Shown: positions 9,036 to 33,097 of the stretch, piece after piece
How positions within the stretch are numbered: position 1 is the stretch's first letter
How the letters are laid out: each line of letters opens with the position of its first letter
Origin: an uncultured Lachnospiraceae bacterium
Lineage (GTDB): Bacteria; Bacillota; Clostridia; Lachnospirales; Lachnospiraceae
DNA length: 64,000 bases
Assembly: GCA_949840805.1 (NCBI GenBank)
Contig: CATKXR010000002.1
Coordinates: 62,001 to 126,000, forward strand
Direction of reading: 5' to 3'
Made by a program: the position numbers and the translations under genes
Notes under the pieces: model-generated
The model's database searches: none
The model's input: the letters and a program-made list of their open reading frames with translations, nothing else
What the model was told of the DNA's origin: nothing

Positions 9036-10403
9036 TTATTTTTTCCTGGTTTTATAAAAATAGAAGGGTACTTCCACCAGAAGCATGGCGCTCCAGCCGA
9101 TGGCACAGGCTATGGCAATTCCTGCGATACCCAGCCGGGGCGCCAGTATCCAGGAAGCGGCCACCCGCAGGCTGGTCTGGATAAAGGTACACAGAAGGGT
9201 CGTTTTCATCATGCCCATGCCCCGGAAGAAGCCCTGAAAACCGTTGGTAAAGGCCGGATAAAGGTAGAACAGCGCCATCAGGGCCAGATACCGGCTTCCC
9301 TGAGCCACGATTTTTTCGGCTCCTTCCCCGGTTACAAACCATCCGACGATGTGCTTTCTGAGGAACAGCACCACGATGCAGATACACGCCCAGTACCCGA
9401 ATTCCAGAATCAGGCCCCGGCCAAAGCCTCTGCGCGTCCGGTCTTCTTTCCCAGCGCCCCGGTTCTGGGCGACAAAGGTGGTGATCCCATGGGAGATGCT
9501 CTGTTCCGGCATGCAGGCAAAATCGTCTACCCGGCCGACTGCGTTGAAGGCGGCAATCACATCCAGGCCAAGCCCGTTGACGGCTCCCTGGATCAGCAGT
9601 TTCCCTACCGGCTGGCAGGATTGCTGCAACGCGGTCACGGAGCCGTACTGCAGGGTGGTTTTCAGCAGGCCTTTGTCGACCTTAAACTCTCCCCGCCGCA
9701 ACTGCAGCAGAGGAACGCGATGGTATACATACCAGACGGAAAGGCCAGCGGACACGGCTTCGGCCACGACGGTGGTTACGGCGGAGCAGACGATGCCGAA
9801 GCCTAACAGGCCGATAAAAACCAGATCCAGCAGCCCGTTCAGAAGAGAGGAGAACATTAAAAATTTTAAAGGAGTTTTGGAGTCTCCCACGCTTTTCAGG
9901 GCAGATGCCAGCGCGTTGTAAAAATATGTAAAAGGCGCCCCCAGAAAGATAATCCGCAGATACCGGGACGTCATTTCCAGCAATTCCTCCGGCACGCATA
10001 AAGCCTGAAGCAGCATCGGCGTTGCCGCAATTCCCACAATAATCACGGCCAGGGAAAAGAAGAATCCAAATAAAACGGCCGTGGACATTTCTTTTTTCAA
10101 ATTATCATATTCTTTAGCTCCATAGAATCCGCTCATCAATACGCCGGCTCCCATACAGATGCCGGATATTCCCAAAATCACCAGATTCATCACCGGCCCC
10201 GCCATTCCTTCCGCAGCCAGCGCCTCCCTTCCGATAAAGCGGCCGGCTATCATGGAGTCTACGGCATGATAAGTAAGCTGGAATACATTGCCCAGCACCA
10301 GGGGAACCGAATATTGTAGCAAATGCCTGGTGATACTGCCTTCTGTCATATCTGTTGCTGCCATGTCCTGTTTTATCCTTTTTTGCATTTTTTTGGTATC
10401 CAT
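9036..10403 (-). CDS. MATE family efflux transporter
   Basis: A 455-residue membrane protein with about 12 hydrophobic segments and MATE hallmarks: LVLGNVFQLTYHAVDSMIAG near the N terminus and a symmetrical second half. MATE proteins export drugs or metabolites using sodium or proton gradients. It is convergent with the M16C peptidase (22 nt between stops). The start is uncertain: a TATAAT-like element on this strand overlaps the first ATG (10403), so translation may begin at the ATG at 10388 or at 10364 (MAATDMTEGS), which has an AAGGAT about 10 nt upstream. Confidence 0.9.
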   Translation of the reverse strand: MDTKKMQKRIKQDMAATDMTEGSITRHLLQYSVPLVLGNVFQLTYHAVDSMIAGRFIGREALAAEGMAGPVMNLVILGISGICMGAGVLMSGFYGAKEYDNLKKEMSTAVLFGFFFSLAVIIVGIAATPMLLQALCVPEELLEMTSRYLRIIFLGAPFTYFYNALASALKSVGDSKTPLKFLMFSSLLNGLLDLVFIGLLGFGIVCSAVTTVVAEAVSAGLSVWYVYHRVPLLQLRRGEFKVDKGLLKTTLQYGSVTALQQSCQPVGKLLIQGAVNGLGLDVIAAFNAVGRVDDFACMPEQSISHGITTFVAQNRGAGKEDRTRRGFGRGLILEFGYWACICIVVLFLRKHIVGWFVTGEGAEKIVAQGSRYLALMALFYLYPAFTNGFQGFFRGMGMMKTTLLCTFIQTSLRVAASWILAPRLGIAGIAIACAIGWSAMLLVEVPFYFYKTRKK

Positions 10404-19810: not shown

Positions 19811-20332
19811 ATGCATGATGATATTTATCAGATGTATCTGGAGGAGGTAAAGAGGATCCCCGTCTGCACCTGTGAAGAGGAGAGGGAGCTGCTTGCGCGT
19901 GTCCGGGCAGGCAATAAGGCGGCGCGGGAAAGGCTTTTGGAAGGAACGCTCCGCTATGTGCTGGAGCTGGCAGGAAAGTACCGGGGGCGGGGGCTTGCGG
20001 CCGGGGATCTGGTCCAGGAGGCCAATATGGCGCTGCTTCTGGCCCTGGAAGGATATGAAGGCGGAGATTTCAGGGAGCAGATAAAAGCACTGGCATCCGA
20101 ACGGCTGGAAGCGGCCATTGAGGCACAAAAACGGGAAAAGCAGGCGGAAGAAGAAGTGGCGGCCAGAGTCAACGTCCTGAAAGATATTTCCAAGATGATG
20201 GCAGAGGAGCTGGGCAGGGAGGCCACGGTGGAGGAACTTGCCGAAAAGATGAAGATGACCCGGGAGGAGATCAAGGATATTATGAAGGTGACTCTGGATG
20301 CCATGAGCGTCAGTCCGGATGTGGAGTTCTAG
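19811..20332 (+). CDS. Sigma-70-like protein without regions 2.4 and 4
   Basis: The 173-residue product aligns by eye to primary-type sigma factors in region 1.2 (DIYQMYLEEVKRIPVCT), region 2.1-2.2 (ARERLLEGTLRYVLELAGKYRGRGLAAGDLVQEAN) and region 3 (EELGREATVEELAEKMKMTREEIKDIM). The region 2.3-2.4 equivalent has lost its aromatic DNA-melting residues, and the protein ends before any region 4 helix-turn-helix. It may bind core polymerase without promoter recognition, acting as a modulator, or be a decaying sigma gene. GGAGG precedes the ATG. No anti-sigma gene is nearby. Confidence 0.75.
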   Translation: MHDDIYQMYLEEVKRIPVCTCEEERELLARVRAGNKAARERLLEGTLRYVLELAGKYRGRGLAAGDLVQEANMALLLALEGYEGGDFREQIKALASERLEAAIEAQKREKQAEEEVAARVNVLKDISKMMAEELGREATVEELAEKMKMTREEIKDIMKVTLDAMSVSPDVEF

Positions 20333-28438: not shown

Positions 28439-28498
28439 GTAGTTGCGGCCTGGGTTTTGGCGGCAGAAGACGATAACAATTAAGAGGAGGTGTTTTTT

Positions 28499-29683
28499 AT
28501 GGGTGAGAAACTGCTGGCAAAAAATATAGAGAACAATCAGTTAAGGATTCGGTTAGGGGAGCGGATCGACACGGTGAACAGTACCCAGGTGAGGAGCGAG
28601 ATTGAGGAGGCTGTTGCCGGGGCTTTCGGCGCGGCGCTGGTTCTCGATGCAGAACAGTTAAAGTACATATCCAGTGCGGGATTGAGGATGATGCTGACGC
28701 TGCAGAAGCAGAACAAAGACATGCAGGTTATTAATGTCTGCCGGGATGTGTATGATATTTTTGAGATGACAGGTTTTACAAGCCTTTTGAATATCACAAA
28801 GGCTTACAGGCAGTATTCGGTGGAGGGGCTTTCCATGATCGGATGGGGAACCTGCGGCAAGGTGTACCGCCTGGATGAAGAAACGATCATCAAAGTGTTT
28901 AACCCGGGCTTTGATCTTGACAAGATCACAAAGGAACAGAACAGCGCCAGGACGGCTTTCGTCAACGGGATTGATACGGCCATTTCCTATGATGTGGTGA
29001 AGGCAGGGGATTGCTTCGGGATTGTATATGAAATGCTGGAAGCGGACACGATCCGGAGCTGTATGAAGAAGGAGCCGGATAAGCTGGAATATTATATCGG
29101 GATCTATGCAGGCTTTATGAAGAATATGCATCATACGCATTTCGGGAAGGACGCGCTGCCGGAAGTGAAAAACAGGTGGATCCCGTGTATCGATTCCATG
29201 GGGCGTTTTTTTGACGATTCTGAGAAGGCTCTGGTTAAGAAGATGTTTGAGGATATTCCGGACAGGGATACCTTTATCCACGGGGATTATAACATCGGAA
29301 ACCTGATGTGCCAGAATGGAAAAGGGATCCTGATCGATATGGGTGACGCCAGCACGGGGCATCCGATTTATGACCTGCTGGGGGTGTATCTTGGCTTCAA
29401 GCTGTTTCCGGAGCTTATGCCTCCGGAGGGATGCGTCCAAATGACGGGGTTTGGCAAAGAAGAAAATGACAGGATGTGGGAGGCGTTCTGCAGGGAATAT
29501 TTTGACATCCGTGACGAGGCGGGAAGGAAGGCCATAGAGGAGGAGATCCGGCCCTATTCAGCTTTCCGGGTGCTTCAGGCGGCCCTGACCGTGAATGTGT
29601 TCCCAGAAAAAATGCTGGATGCCTGCAGGAAAATCCTGATGGAGGCGGCAGGGAATGATGGCAGAAAAGCTCTGAGCTTTTAG
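28499..29683 (+). CDS. STAS domain fused to an APH-like phosphotransferase
   Basis: A 394-residue two-domain protein. Residues 1-100 form a STAS (anti-anti-sigma) domain with the phosphorylatable-serine motif YISSAGLRMML (Ser58/Ser59). Residues about 115-390 form an aminoglycoside-phosphotransferase/choline-kinase-like domain: GWGTCGKVYRL near the ATP loop, the catalytic HGDYNIGNLM (His261) and the metal-binding LIDMGD (Asp280). The substrate may be a sugar or small molecule and is not evident. The start is ATG 28499, set by GAGGAGG 8 nt upstream. The next gene, 17 nt on, carries an RsbW-like ATPase domain, the usual partner of STAS proteins. Confidence 0.88.
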   Translation: MGEKLLAKNIENNQLRIRLGERIDTVNSTQVRSEIEEAVAGAFGAALVLDAEQLKYISSAGLRMMLTLQKQNKDMQVINVCRDVYDIFEMTGFTSLLNITKAYRQYSVEGLSMIGWGTCGKVYRLDEETIIKVFNPGFDLDKITKEQNSARTAFVNGIDTAISYDVVKAGDCFGIVYEMLEADTIRSCMKKEPDKLEYYIGIYAGFMKNMHHTHFGKDALPEVKNRWIPCIDSMGRFFDDSEKALVKKMFEDIPDRDTFIHGDYNIGNLMCQNGKGILIDMGDASTGHPIYDLLGVYLGFKLFPELMPPEGCVQMTGFGKEENDRMWEAFCREYFDIRDEAGRKAIEEEIRPYSAFRVLQAALTVNVFPEKMLDACRKILMEAAGNDGRKALSF

Positions 29684-29700
29684 ATGGGATCTTGGATAAT

Positions 29701-31485
29701 ATGAACAGGAAAAATGATTATATCGTAAAATCCGTATACCGTTCCTTTGTCTTTGTTTCCATCATGACGGCCATTGTGGCCACGGCCGGCATGATGATCG
29801 ACAATGTGGTGGTAGGGCAGTTTTTAGGGACAGAGTGCTTAAGCGCCATGGGTCTGGTAAGCCCGGTGAGCCTTGTCTTTTCCGCGGTGGGCAATATCAG
29901 CTCCAGCGGGGGAGCCACCATGGCGGCCAGAGAATTGGGGCGGGGCAATAAGGAAAAAGTGTGCAGCATTTTTTCCGTTACCATGTTGTATACCCTCGTG
30001 ACAGGAGGGATCCTGACGATCGGGGGATGGATATTCGCGCCGCAGATTGCGGTGTGGCTGGGGGCAAAGGGAGATGTAGTCCGGCCCACCATCGATTATC
30101 TGAGGGGATTTTTCCTGGGAGCCATACCGACGATCATGATGCCTGCGGTGATGGGATTTGTAAAAATGGACGGTTCTCCCAGCCTGCCGCTTTTGTCCAT
30201 GGGCGTTATGTCTGCTTTAGATGTAGTGCTTGACCTGATGATGGCCCTTGTCTTTAAAAAGGGAATGTTCGGCATGGCTCTCGCGACAACGCTCAGTTAT
30301 TTTGCGGCGGTTGCAGTGGGATTTATCCATTTTACGCGAAGCTACAATTCTCTTAGATTTGTTGCGCCGGGGGAGCTTTGGAAGGAGCTTGGCGAAATGG
30401 TGGCGACCGGCGCGCCCACGGCGGTGAACCGGATATGCGACACGATAAAAACCATTGTCTTCAACAATATGATGATCGTCATCGCCGGGACCGGGGCTGT
30501 GGCCGCTTTGAATGTGCGGACCCAGGTTTACAACCTGGTCGGCTCCCTCATTATGGGGGCGGGCCAGGCGCTTATGCCGGTTACTGCGTTGTTTTACGGG
30601 GAGGAGGATGCCGGCGCCCTGACGGGAAGCGTGAAAGAGAGCATCCGGATCGGCATGGCCTTGTGCGCGGCGGCTATGGCGGTGCTGCTTTTGAATCCAT
30701 CGTTTTTTTCTGATATTTTAGGCGTCAAAGAGGATTCCATCCGGATGATGGCAGATGTGGGGATCCGTTTTTTTGCCGTCAGTATGCCGGTGCGGCTGAT
30801 GAACGTTTTATGTATTTCCTTTTACCAGAGCACGGAGCGCAATACCCACGCCATGACGGCCAGCGTTTTTCAGGCGTTTGCCTTTACGGTTGCCGCCGCC
30901 GTCATATTAGTGAAACCCTTTGGGGTAGATGGTATTTTTGCATCGTTTTTGGTTGGGGAGATCCTGACCTTTGCCTACCTGGCTTTCTATGCGGGCAGGA
31001 AGCAGGGAAAGTTTTGCCTGAAAATTCCTGATTATATGCTTCTGCCGGAGAAGTTCGGACAGAACGTCTTGAAAAGATGGGAGATGTCCATTGGAAATGA
31101 CATGGGAGAGGTAATGGCGCTGTCCTCCAAAATCACGGAGCGGGCCAGGGAAGAGAACCTCCGGCCCGGTTTCGCCAATACCATTGCCTTGTGTGTGGAG
31201 GAAATGGCAGGAAACGTCGTCCGACATGCCTTTAAGCCCGGGGAAAAGAAGTGGTTTGATGTATTGATCCTGGAAAAAGAGCATGAGTTTATTGTCAGGA
31301 TGCGGGATAACGGGAAAATGTTTGACCCTCTGAAATATTTTCATGAAAACGCGGATGATAAAGATACGGAACATATGGGGATTAAACTGGTCTTAAAGAT
31401 GGCAAAGGACGTGCAGTACAGCAGGAGTATCGGGCTGAATAACCTGATCGTTACGGTTGAAAAGGGAGATTGCGGGCCGGGATAA
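29701..31485 (+). CDS. MATE transporter fused to RsbW-like HATPase domain
   Basis: Residues about 1-445 are a MATE exporter (SIMTAIVATAGMMIDNVVVGQFLG and about 12 membrane segments). The soluble C-terminal 140 residues form a GHKL ATPase of the RsbW/SpoIIAB type: N box CVEEMAGNVVRHAF, G1 box MRDNGKMFDP and G2 box HMGIKLVLKMA are all present. Such domains phosphorylate STAS proteins or hold sigma factors. The product therefore resembles a transporter with a built-in partner-switching kinase, encoded next to a STAS-kinase fusion. The ribosome site is weak; a TTG at 29692 is an alternative start. 594 residues. Confidence 0.9.
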   Translation: MNRKNDYIVKSVYRSFVFVSIMTAIVATAGMMIDNVVVGQFLGTECLSAMGLVSPVSLVFSAVGNISSSGGATMAARELGRGNKEKVCSIFSVTMLYTLVTGGILTIGGWIFAPQIAVWLGAKGDVVRPTIDYLRGFFLGAIPTIMMPAVMGFVKMDGSPSLPLLSMGVMSALDVVLDLMMALVFKKGMFGMALATTLSYFAAVAVGFIHFTRSYNSLRFVAPGELWKELGEMVATGAPTAVNRICDTIKTIVFNNMMIVIAGTGAVAALNVRTQVYNLVGSLIMGAGQALMPVTALFYGEEDAGALTGSVKESIRIGMALCAAAMAVLLLNPSFFSDILGVKEDSIRMMADVGIRFFAVSMPVRLMNVLCISFYQSTERNTHAMTASVFQAFAFTVAAAVILVKPFGVDGIFASFLVGEILTFAYLAFYAGRKQGKFCLKIPDYMLLPEKFGQNVLKRWEMSIGNDMGEVMALSSKITERAREENLRPGFANTIALCVEEMAGNVVRHAFKPGEKKWFDVLILEKEHEFIVRMRDNGKMFDPLKYFHENADDKDTEHMGIKLVLKMAKDVQYSRSIGLNNLIVTVEKGDCGPG

Positions 31486-31528: not shown

Positions 31529-33049
31529 GTGTTTTCCATATTGTTTGCCGGCTTAAAAATGATTTTTGTGCCGTCCGTCTTTGCGCTGGTCACGGCCGGA
31601 ACCATATTGGGAGTGATTTTCGGGGCAATGCCGGGAGTGGGCGCTTCCATGGCAGTGGCCCTGGCCCTGCCTTTTGCCTACGAGATGGCTCCTGAGACGG
31701 CAATCGGATTTTTGGCGGCCGTGTATTCGGCATCAGTAACGGGCGGCGGGATTACCGCTGTTTTGTACCGGGTTCCCGGCACGCCTTCCAGCGCCCCGAC
31801 CATCTTTGACGGCTATCCCATGGCCAGGCGGGGAGAGGCGGGAAAAGCGCTGGGATTTTCCCTGATTGCTTCTGCCATAGGAGGGATGGCCGGGGCGTTT
31901 GCCATGGTGCTTCTCTGCCCCCACTTCTCGGCGGTAGCCGGAAGGTTCGGATATTCCGAACTGTTTGCCATATGTGTCCTGGGGCTGTGCCTGCTGCCCT
32001 GCTTAGACAGAGGAAATATTGTAAAGACTCTGATTTCCGTTCTTTTAGGGCTGCTTCTTGCATGTATGGGGATGGATCCCGTTTTAAAGCTGCCACGGTT
32101 TGGCTGGAGTGATTCCGTGTTTTTTTCGGAGATTGAGATGATTCCGGTTATGATCGGCCTGTTCGTGGTGGCGGAGGTGCTGAAACAGACCGAGAAACGG
32201 GGGAAATCCGGCCTTGCCGGAAAATCCGGGGAAGATAAGGGAATGAAAACCTTGCTTCCCAGACCTGGGGAGGTGTGGCAGACAAGGATTACCATGCTGC
32301 GTTCTTCCGTCATAGGGCTGGTGGTGGGAATTCTGCCCGGAGCCGGGGCAACGGTCGCCTCGTTTTTGTCTTACGCGGTTGAAAAGAGAGTGTCAAAACA
32401 TCCTGAGCTTATGGGGACAGGGATTGCGGAGGGAATCGTGGCCTCGGAAGCTGCCAACAATGCCGCCACGGGCGGTTCCATGGTGCCTCTTTTATCTCTT
32501 GGCATTCCGGGAGGCAACGCGGCAGCTATCATGATGACCATCCTGCTGGTAAAAGATGTCCGGCCGGGGCCGGAGCTCATCCAGGTATGGCCGGAGTATC
32601 TGGCCAGTGTGTTCGGATCCATGTTTTTGACGAATATTCTCATGGTCATTGTGGCCATCCTATTGGTACGGATGTCTGTAAAGCTTTTGCGGATACCATA
32701 CAGCGTCTTAGGGCCTGGGATCATGATGCTGGCGGCAGTCGGGGCTTACGGGCTGAACCAGAGATTTTGGGACGTGCTTTTGATGGCCGGGGCCGGAGTG
32801 GCGGGATATTGGTTTATCCGGCTGGGTTATAATTCGGCTGCCCTGGTACTGGGGATGGTCATGGGCCAGGCCAGTGAGATGAATCTTCGCCATGCCTATG
32901 TGCTGTGCGGCGGAAGCCTGGCCGGGGTGCTGGCAAAACCGGTGACGGCTGTGATCATGGCAGGATGCGCGGGGATGTTAACATATTCTTTTGTGAGATG
33001 CCATGTGGTGAGGCGGAAGGATAGGCAGGATGTTATGGAGGAAGATTAA
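31529..33049 (+). CDS. Tripartite tricarboxylate transporter permease, TctA family (orphan)
   Basis: A 506-residue, about 12-segment membrane protein with TctA hallmarks: GVIFGAMPGVGASMAVALALPF, YSASVTGGGITAVLYRVPGTP, and later GILPGAGATVASFLSYAVEK and EAANNAATGGSMVPLLSLGIPG. TctA normally works with the small TctB subunit and a periplasmic or lipoprotein TctC binding protein; neither gene is adjacent. The start is GTG with GGGAGG upstream. It follows the MATE-HATPase gene by 43 nt. The ligand (a di- or tricarboxylate in known systems) cannot be told. Confidence 0.88.
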   Translation: MFSILFAGLKMIFVPSVFALVTAGTILGVIFGAMPGVGASMAVALALPFAYEMAPETAIGFLAAVYSASVTGGGITAVLYRVPGTPSSAPTIFDGYPMARRGEAGKALGFSLIASAIGGMAGAFAMVLLCPHFSAVAGRFGYSELFAICVLGLCLLPCLDRGNIVKTLISVLLGLLLACMGMDPVLKLPRFGWSDSVFFSEIEMIPVMIGLFVVAEVLKQTEKRGKSGLAGKSGEDKGMKTLLPRPGEVWQTRITMLRSSVIGLVVGILPGAGATVASFLSYAVEKRVSKHPELMGTGIAEGIVASEAANNAATGGSMVPLLSLGIPGGNAAAIMMTILLVKDVRPGPELIQVWPEYLASVFGSMFLTNILMVIVAILLVRMSVKLLRIPYSVLGPGIMMLAAVGAYGLNQRFWDVLLMAGAGVAGYWFIRLGYNSAALVLGMVMGQASEMNLRHAYVLCGGSLAGVLAKPVTAVIMAGCAGMLTYSFVRCHVVRRKDRQDVMEED

Positions 33050-33060
33050 AAAATAAAGTA

Positions 33061-33097
33061 CTGAGTGCAACACAAGCTGTAATTGTGTTGCACTCAG
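33061..33097. terminator. 15-bp perfect hairpin after the TctA gene
   Basis: CTGAGTGCAACACAA at 33061-33075 and TTGTGTTGCACTCAG at 33083-33097 are perfect reverse complements with a 7-nt loop, 11 nt after the TctA stop. On the + strand no T run follows; on the minus strand a T-rich stretch follows. Confidence 0.5.

Follow-up and report, generated by a model that had tools for sequence, protein, structure and literature searches.

A pair of adjacent fusion genes

The window analysed here is a stretch of 64,000 nucleotides from an uncultured Lachnospiraceae bacterium (GenBank assembly GCA_949840805.1, contig CATKXR010000002.1, positions 62,001 to 126,000 of the forward strand), and positions refer to it unless a locus or another contig is named. 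On its plus strand, two neighbouring genes encode P0001, a STAS domain fused to an APH-fold kinase (394 amino acids, 28499..29683), and P0002, a MATE transporter fused to an RsbW/SpoIIAB-like HATPase domain (594 amino acids, 29701..31485), as read from the open frames, Pfam, and structure models. The best start of P0001 was the ATG at 28499, preceded by AGGAGGTG, with a GTG at 28490 as the alternative. P0002 starts with the ATG at 29701, 17 bases past the P0001 stop on the same strand, and a TTG at 29692 is also possible. The initial annotation of the window had described these two adjacent fusions and proposed a profile search as a check, in which all four Pfam families were indeed found above cut-off: STAS PF01740 (E value 6.5e-08) and APH PF01636 (6.8e-10) in P0001, as well as MatE PF01554 (7.3e-28) and HATPase_c_2 PF13581 (7.4e-12) in P0002.

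The STAS domain of P0001 occupies residues 15-100 (28541..28798), and the STAS profile A3 matched the STAS chains 4hyl, 1th8, and 1auz. Its candidate phospho-acceptor is Ser59 (28673..28675) in the motif YISSAGLR. The aligned residue of SpoIIAA is the leading Ser of DSSG, presumably the phosphorylated Ser58 of that protein. Both serines of the P0001 motif highlighted by the annotation, Ser58 and Ser59, were invariant in 13 of 13 STAS-APH proteins from the whole-protein search (alignment A1). Ser59 was also kept in 65 of 65 proteins of a larger STAS-APH set, a count that is biased because the loci were partly selected with the pattern YISSAGLR. Against NCBIfam, the domain stayed under the cut-offs of the SpoIIAA equivalog TIGR02886 (34 vs. 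114.75 bits) and of ant_ant_sig TIGR00377 (49.5 bits, cut-off 53.45).

The APH-fold kinase domain covers about residues 105-394 (28811..29680), as located with PF01636 and Foldseek. The AlphaFold model of P0001 had a mean predicted local distance difference test score (pLDDT) of 95.0, and its best Foldseek matches were APH(3')-Ia, APH(2''), and methylthioribose kinase, with 13-17% identity among the best 50 matches. The kinase residues K132, E146, H261, D263, N268, and D280 were invariant in all 65 STAS-APH proteins, and the search patterns for this set did not include them. The catalytic HGDxxxxN motif reported in the annotation was thereby borne out in H261, D263, and N268, with the HGD itself (H261-D263) at 29279..29287. 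P0001 combines the APH fold with HGDxxxxN, as aminoglycoside O-phosphotransferases do. In NCBIfam, the kinase part scored highest with TIGR02172, which we take to be linked to Fibrobacter paralogues, at 111.1 bits and under its curated cut-off of 228.2 bits. P0001 reached none of the resistance-family models in NCBIfam (NF033068, 12.2 vs. 205 bits). A defence-system scan with PADLOC gave no match for the pair, and a reading as a defence system was dropped.

In P0002, the MATE part spans residues 1-440 (29701..31020) and the HATPase domain residues 470-582 (31108..31446). The AlphaFold model (mean pLDDT 92.5) matched the MATE transporter 3wbn with a template modelling score of 0.87, normalised by target length. 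Asp34 (29800..29802), a conserved acidic residue in the first membrane helix, was invariant in 31 of 31 fusions and corresponds in the alignment to the Asp of "NVVDTIF" in BH2163 (DinF-BH); we assume that it has a role in ion coupling. Since this residue is kept, P0002 is probably a working pump. The protein carries the PF01554 match, the fold, and the first-helix Asp of MATE transporters, and scored under the cut-off of the NCBIfam MATE model TIGR00797 (114.5 vs. 147.4 bits).

The MATE segments and the intact N, G1, and G2 boxes noted in the annotation were likewise recovered, with E501, N505, D536, and G560 all present in the HATPase domain. The N box, with Glu501 and Asn505, lies at 31201..31215. 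E501 was invariant in 31 of 31 MATE-HATPase fusions, and over 40 MATE-HATPase domains the N-box Glu was kept in 40 and the Asn in 28, with P0002 keeping both. Among solved structures, the profile A5, built from 18 HATPase domains including that of P0002, was nearest to RsbW (6m36, 8.9e-10) and SpoIIAB (approximately 3e-07). RsbW and SpoIIAB are kinases of STAS proteins. P0002 scored under the RsbW equivalog cut-offs (TIGR01924, 12.1 vs. 155.05 bits; NF003144, 13.7 vs. 145 bits). As a separate observation, the N-box Asn is absent from the MATE-HATPase genes of loci L131, L132, and L134-L139, which lie beside PP2C genes, and their HATPase may bind without phosphorylating.

Co-occurrence and conserved adjacency

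The two fusions were counted in a family sample of 397 Lachnospiraceae genomes spanning 334 genera and in a class sample of 391 genomes. All fusion counts are lower bounds read by eye, with a maximum of three to four candidates scored per genome. To count as a STAS-APH fusion, a match had to begin at profile position 20 or earlier and extend to position 280 or later, which dropped genomes with APH only and genome G628 (match starting at 60). A MATE-HATPase match had to reach position 560, which dropped G125 and G225. The family sample held at least 35 genomes with STAS-APH, at least 54 with MATE-HATPase, and at least 21 with both, compared with 4.8 expected (Fisher p = 8e-12). In the class sample, the corresponding numbers were at least 21, at least 24, and at least 9, with 1.3 expected (p = 4.6e-7). 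The annotation had named rare co-occurrence of the two genes in other genomes as the outcome that would speak against their connection, and the samples gave the opposite. The pairing of STAS-APH with MATE-HATPase recurs and is genuine.

Of the 115 family genomes in which the STAS-APH profile scored strongly (through STAS, APH, or both), 47 had MATE-HATPase, compared with 7 of the 282 others. The 47 genomes comprised 21 of the 35 with STAS-APH and 26 of the 80 with another strong profile match. Therefore, the exporter fusion tracks STAS-type partners in general.

The two genes also lie together in several other genomes. Genome G234 has STAS-APH and, approximately 50 bases on, MATE-HATPase in the order and strand arrangement of the window, at 53% and 61% identity. 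In G598, which belongs to another family and consists of a single contig, both genes are on one strand with MATE-HATPase first, at 35% and 32% identity. In both genomes, the flanking genes differ from those of the window. Locus L092 of G080 carries MATE-HATPase followed by two STAS-APH genes, and in L232, labelled Treponema, MATE-HATPase lies two genes before STAS-APH. In order, the L253 operon contains PP2C, MATE-HATPase, STAS-APH-HATPase, and PHP, and the L296 operon contains STAS, PP2C, MATE-HATPase, STAS-APH-HATPase, and PHP, with similar gene sets in L297 and L298.

Neighbours of STAS-APH genes and triple fusions

A locus search with the P0001 sequence alone confirmed no relatives, and the profile of alignment A1 did. 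Using the STAS-APH profile and two patterns, one of which was YISSAGLR, 80 loci were collected, of which 70 were kept and 10 lacked an intact STAS-APH frame. In all, there were 557 candidate stretches for relatives, possibly with STAS-only stretches among them, and the lineages, from gut and rumen, included Lachnospiraceae, Oscillospiraceae, Erysipelotrichaceae, Coriobacteriaceae, Treponema, and others.

Thirteen of the 70 loci contained a STAS-APH-HATPase triple fusion, and the four scanned by Pfam all held the three domains. Thus, the STAS and HATPase halves arguably work together. In the HATPase tree, the nearest neighbour was another MATE-HATPase for 40 of 40 MATE-HATPase domains and another STAS-APH-HATPase for 12 of 12 STAS-APH-HATPase domains. 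Because each class has its own members as nearest neighbours, the HATPase tail of the exporter is not a recent copy of the HATPase of the kinase, and this origin was ruled out.

The genes around STAS-APH were compared between 268 frames within two genes (near) and 509 frames further out in the same loci (far), with frames treated as independent and with L226 and L280, which look like near-copies, both counted. HATPase-bearing frames (24 near vs. 2 far), PP2C (15 vs. 6), and STAS (15 vs. 5) were concentrated next to STAS-APH. So were HD_4 (10 vs. 1), Y_phosphatase3 (7 vs. 1), and PHP (7 vs. 0), and PAP2 (3 vs. 1, p =.12) was not significant alone; the profiles of these last four families were trained on the counted frames, while those for STAS, HATPase, MATE, and PP2C came from other loci. 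In 34 of the 70 loci, STAS-APH had a HATPase or PP2C gene beside it or a HATPase fused to it, and in 23 it had one of HD_4, Y_phosphatase3, PHP, or PAP2 beside it. When example neighbours were scanned with Pfam, HD_4, Y_phosphatase3, and PAP2 exceeded their cut-offs and one PHP protein fell just under (25.5 vs. 26.4). Of 18 HD_4 matches, 16 carry the motif HDxxED, and all 10 Y_phosphatase3 matches carry HCx5R.

The annotation had also raised a resistance role for the pair. This part gained no support: no resistance model was reached, PADLOC gave no match, and the neighbours in relatives are phosphatases, which suggest reversible phosphorylation of a substrate rather than antibiotic inactivation.

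A further observation concerned HD_4 domains fused to the same APH-kinase family, in one clade of four (L108 6040-7515, L109 5622-7202, L232 11723-13216, and L301 4720-6198). RelA/SpoT proteins have a hydrolase-plus-synthetase layout, which the HD_4-APH fusions resemble in logic. Two of the four, in L108 and L232, lack HDxxED, and 13 separate short HD_4 proteins keep it.

Neighbours of MATE-HATPase genes

For the exporter fusion, 36 loci fetched by MATE-HATPase searches were compared, with 37 such genes in total. Six of these loci (L303-L308) belong to genomes picked because STAS-APH was present in them too, and L114, L127, and L130 gave no MATE-HATPase frame. A STAS, PP2C, or other HATPase gene was located within five genes of 18 of the 37 (STAS in 9), and an adenylating enzyme (nonribosomal peptide synthetase [NRPS], AMP-ligase, or GH3-like) in 10. 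Condensation and adenylation domains lie beside MATE-HATPase in L110, L111, L116, L123, and L126, and genome G057 carries a P0002 relative (49% identity) in a run of NRPS, STAS, APH, and MATE-HATPase. The APH in that run matches choline- and ecdysteroid-kinase families and belongs to another subgroup than P0001.

Two side observations belong here. On another contig of the genome under study (C7:125181-131618, or L143 182-6619), an NRPS with adenylation, condensation, adenylation, and reductase domains is followed after about 1 kb by a free STAS gene, and in some relatives NRPS and STAS occur together with MATE-HATPase. GH3-like adenylating enzymes were seen in partner-switch clusters at L110 7123-8865, L124 3420-5180, and L267 9818-11521; the L267 enzyme is Pfam GH3, and the other two are GH3-like by similarity.

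A proposed partner-switching module

Partner switching is known mainly for freeing sigma factors, with a few enzyme targets. The pair in the window is best read as a partner-switching module with a kinase and an exporter attached in place of the sigma factor, in which the HATPase on the exporter would control the STAS domain of the kinase; we give this reading a probability of roughly 0.6. The pair has a STAS domain with a conserved Ser and an RsbW-type HATPase with N, G1, and G2 boxes, and the two domains are very likely switch partners. Taking them as switch halves is the economical reading because of the triple fusions and the repeated company of PP2C. The observations underneath are the domains and their intact catalytic residues, the co-occurrence and adjacency of the genes, the triple fusions, and the clustering with PP2C, HATPase, and phosphatase genes.

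In the proposed mechanism, the cytosolic HATPase tail of the P0002 MATE would bind the STAS domain of P0001 and phosphorylate it on Ser59, as RsbW does with RsbV, and the phosphate would be removed again by a PP2C phosphatase whose gene lies elsewhere in the genome. Whether the STAS domain is phosphorylated, or bound, may then determine how active the APH-fold kinase that follows it in the chain is, or whether this kinase is recruited to the membrane. This kinase would phosphorylate a small molecule or another substrate, which dedicated phosphatases in relatives would dephosphorylate, and the state of the P0002 pump could be an input to the switch or be determined by it. In a broader and more tentative version, for which the odds seem to us clearly below even, STAS-APH proteins would form a class of small-molecule kinases under partner-switch control. 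They would write a phosphorylated metabolite or messenger, and the co-encoded HD_4, PHP, Y_phosphatase3, or PAP2 phosphatase would erase it. HATPase and PP2C would set the kinase, and here the HATPase would be built into an exporter, reading out transport or membrane state.

Several results weigh against the proposed module. The co-occurrence tests treat genomes as unrelated and ignore phylogeny; no MATE-HATPase was among the matches listed, at three candidates per genome, in 14 of the 35 STAS-APH family genomes; and no full STAS-APH fusion was found in the genus outside this genome, with 23 other genomes compared. MATE-HATPase lies within three genes in 5 of the 70 STAS-APH loci, where MATE is weakly enriched (5 near vs. 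2 far, p =.05) and the commoner partner is PP2C-HATPase or a free HATPase. Conversely, 19 of the 37 MATE-HATPase genes have no switch gene within five genes. In the APH tree, the triple fusions make up 17 of 20 leaves under one node and therefore have roughly one origin. The HATPase sequence of P0002 alone gave no sequence match in the PDB, the N-box Asn is lost in 12 of 40 MATE-HATPase domains, and the G1 box is DxC instead of DxG in 19 of 40. Some of these tails may therefore bind without phosphorylating. Of the components of an RsbU-V-W-type module, PP2C was not found in the window; it is present beside relatives, and the genome has five SpoIIE-type matches elsewhere, one of them weak.

The exporter might instead be the output of the switch, with unphosphorylated STAS docking on the HATPase tail to open or close the MATE transporter, and the APH kinase fused to STAS would bring a substrate-modifying enzyme to the pump. 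This is rather unlikely, but has some evidence in its favour: the free STAS genes (9/37) and adenylating enzymes (10/37) within five genes of MATE-HATPase, the 12 of 40 tails without the N-box Asn, and the invariance of Asp34, with which transport seems preserved. MlaB is also a STAS protein that regulates a transporter (PMC7367683). However, the P0002 HATPase keeps E501 and N505, and the triple fusions place the HATPase on the kinase in a chain without a transporter. In a further, improbable reading, the kinase would modify and the MATE export an NRPS-made small peptide, with the switch providing the timing, for self-protection or delivery. Dipeptide aldehydes and pyrazinones are reported products of gut NRPS. 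The G057 run, the reductase-ending NRPS with its following STAS gene elsewhere in the genome under study, and the condensation and adenylation domains beside MATE-HATPase in five loci agree with such a cassette, but no NRPS adjoins the pair in the window, the G057 APH is of another subgroup, and the neighbours enriched around STAS-APH are switch genes and phosphatases.

It would also be possible, with a similarly low chance, that the two proteins share no circuit, so that the P0001 STAS is served by HATPases encoded elsewhere and the P0002 HATPase serves other STAS proteins. In its favour, the genome has three short frames (140-186 amino acids) with stronger HATPase_c_2 matches. STAS was matched at least three further times in it, and SpoIIE phosphatase five times, once weakly. 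The strong co-occurrence in both samples and the two-gene cassette conserved amid different flanks in G234 and G598 argue for a common circuit. Finally, P0002 could be a membrane-tethered anti-sigma factor, its HATPase holding a sigma factor that the P0001 STAS would free. The HATPase profile is indeed nearest RsbW and SpoIIAB, and a sigma-70-like protein is encoded at 19811-20332; that gene lies 8 kb from the pair, though, and no sigma factor was among the 10 recurring STAS-APH neighbour clusters listed, as judged from example sequences. We regard this as very improbable.

Relation to known systems

The module resembles RsbU-RsbV-RsbW and SpoIIE-SpoIIAA-SpoIIAB in its STAS domain with a conserved Ser, its RsbW-type HATPase, and the PP2C beside many relatives, but here the STAS domain sits on an APH-fold kinase, the HATPase on a MATE transporter or a kinase, and no sigma factor is beside the pair. 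P0001 shares fold and catalytic motif with APH(3'), APH(2''), and methylthioribose kinase, and differs in its low identity to them, its N-terminal STAS domain, and the phosphatase neighbours of its relatives. P0002 shares fold and first-helix Asp with the MATE transporters DinF-BH and 3wbn, and differs in its cytosolic RsbW-like HATPase. Since the switch halves are covalently attached to the kinase and the exporter, their targets need no guessing, and with the triple fusions the switch could be tested within one chain. Because STAS-APH is spread over gut and rumen lineages, the substrate of one member would inform many unnamed genes.

In SiaABCD of Pseudomonas, SiaB phosphorylates SiaC, which then no longer activates the diguanylate cyclase SiaD (PMC8457831). 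This partner switch likewise acts on an enzyme and not on a sigma factor, but the enzyme is a separate diguanylate cyclase, whereas the APH-fold kinase of P0001 is in the same chain as STAS. In MlaB-MlaFED (PMC7367683), a STAS protein regulates an ABC-type transporter, the ATPase of which is not of RsbW type, in contrast to the MATE with RsbW-like HATPase found here. No description of a STAS-APH or MATE-HATPase system was found among the titles and abstract openings listed from the open-licence literature, a scope outside which most subscription papers lie. Partner switches on enzymes and a STAS protein acting on a transporter are already known, and the recurrence of the pair in other gut and rumen bacteria suggests an undescribed way of controlling a kinase.

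Further features of the window

The annotation had stated that neither a sigma factor nor a PP2C phosphatase is encoded nearby. For PP2C, this was correct for the window, where none was found among the frames by a custom profile, but not as a trait of the system, as relatives encode PP2C beside such genes. For the sigma factor it was nearly right: the short sigma-70-like protein 8 kb upstream had regions 2 and 3 above and regions 1.2 and 4 below the Pfam cut-off.

Horizontal insertion was considered for the pair, as the full STAS-APH fusion is absent from the other genomes of the genus, yet it was not adopted. When 10 relatives were aligned to window positions 24-37 kb, the alignment was confined to about 34.8-37.0 kb and no empty site could be drawn, and the GC content had no clear jump. 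Promoter-like sites numbered 11 compared with 6.1 (standard deviation 2.7) in shuffles and terminator-like sites 8 compared with 6.7 (standard deviation 3.1), with nothing decisive among them.

A second MATE-like protein, without a HATPase by the custom profiles, is encoded on the minus strand at 9036-10403. Downstream of the pair, a TctA-type membrane protein with a good ribosome site is encoded at 31529-33049, 43 bases past P0002, and its gene is followed by a hairpin of 15 pairs at 33061-33097, which was scored as a minus-strand terminator-like site.

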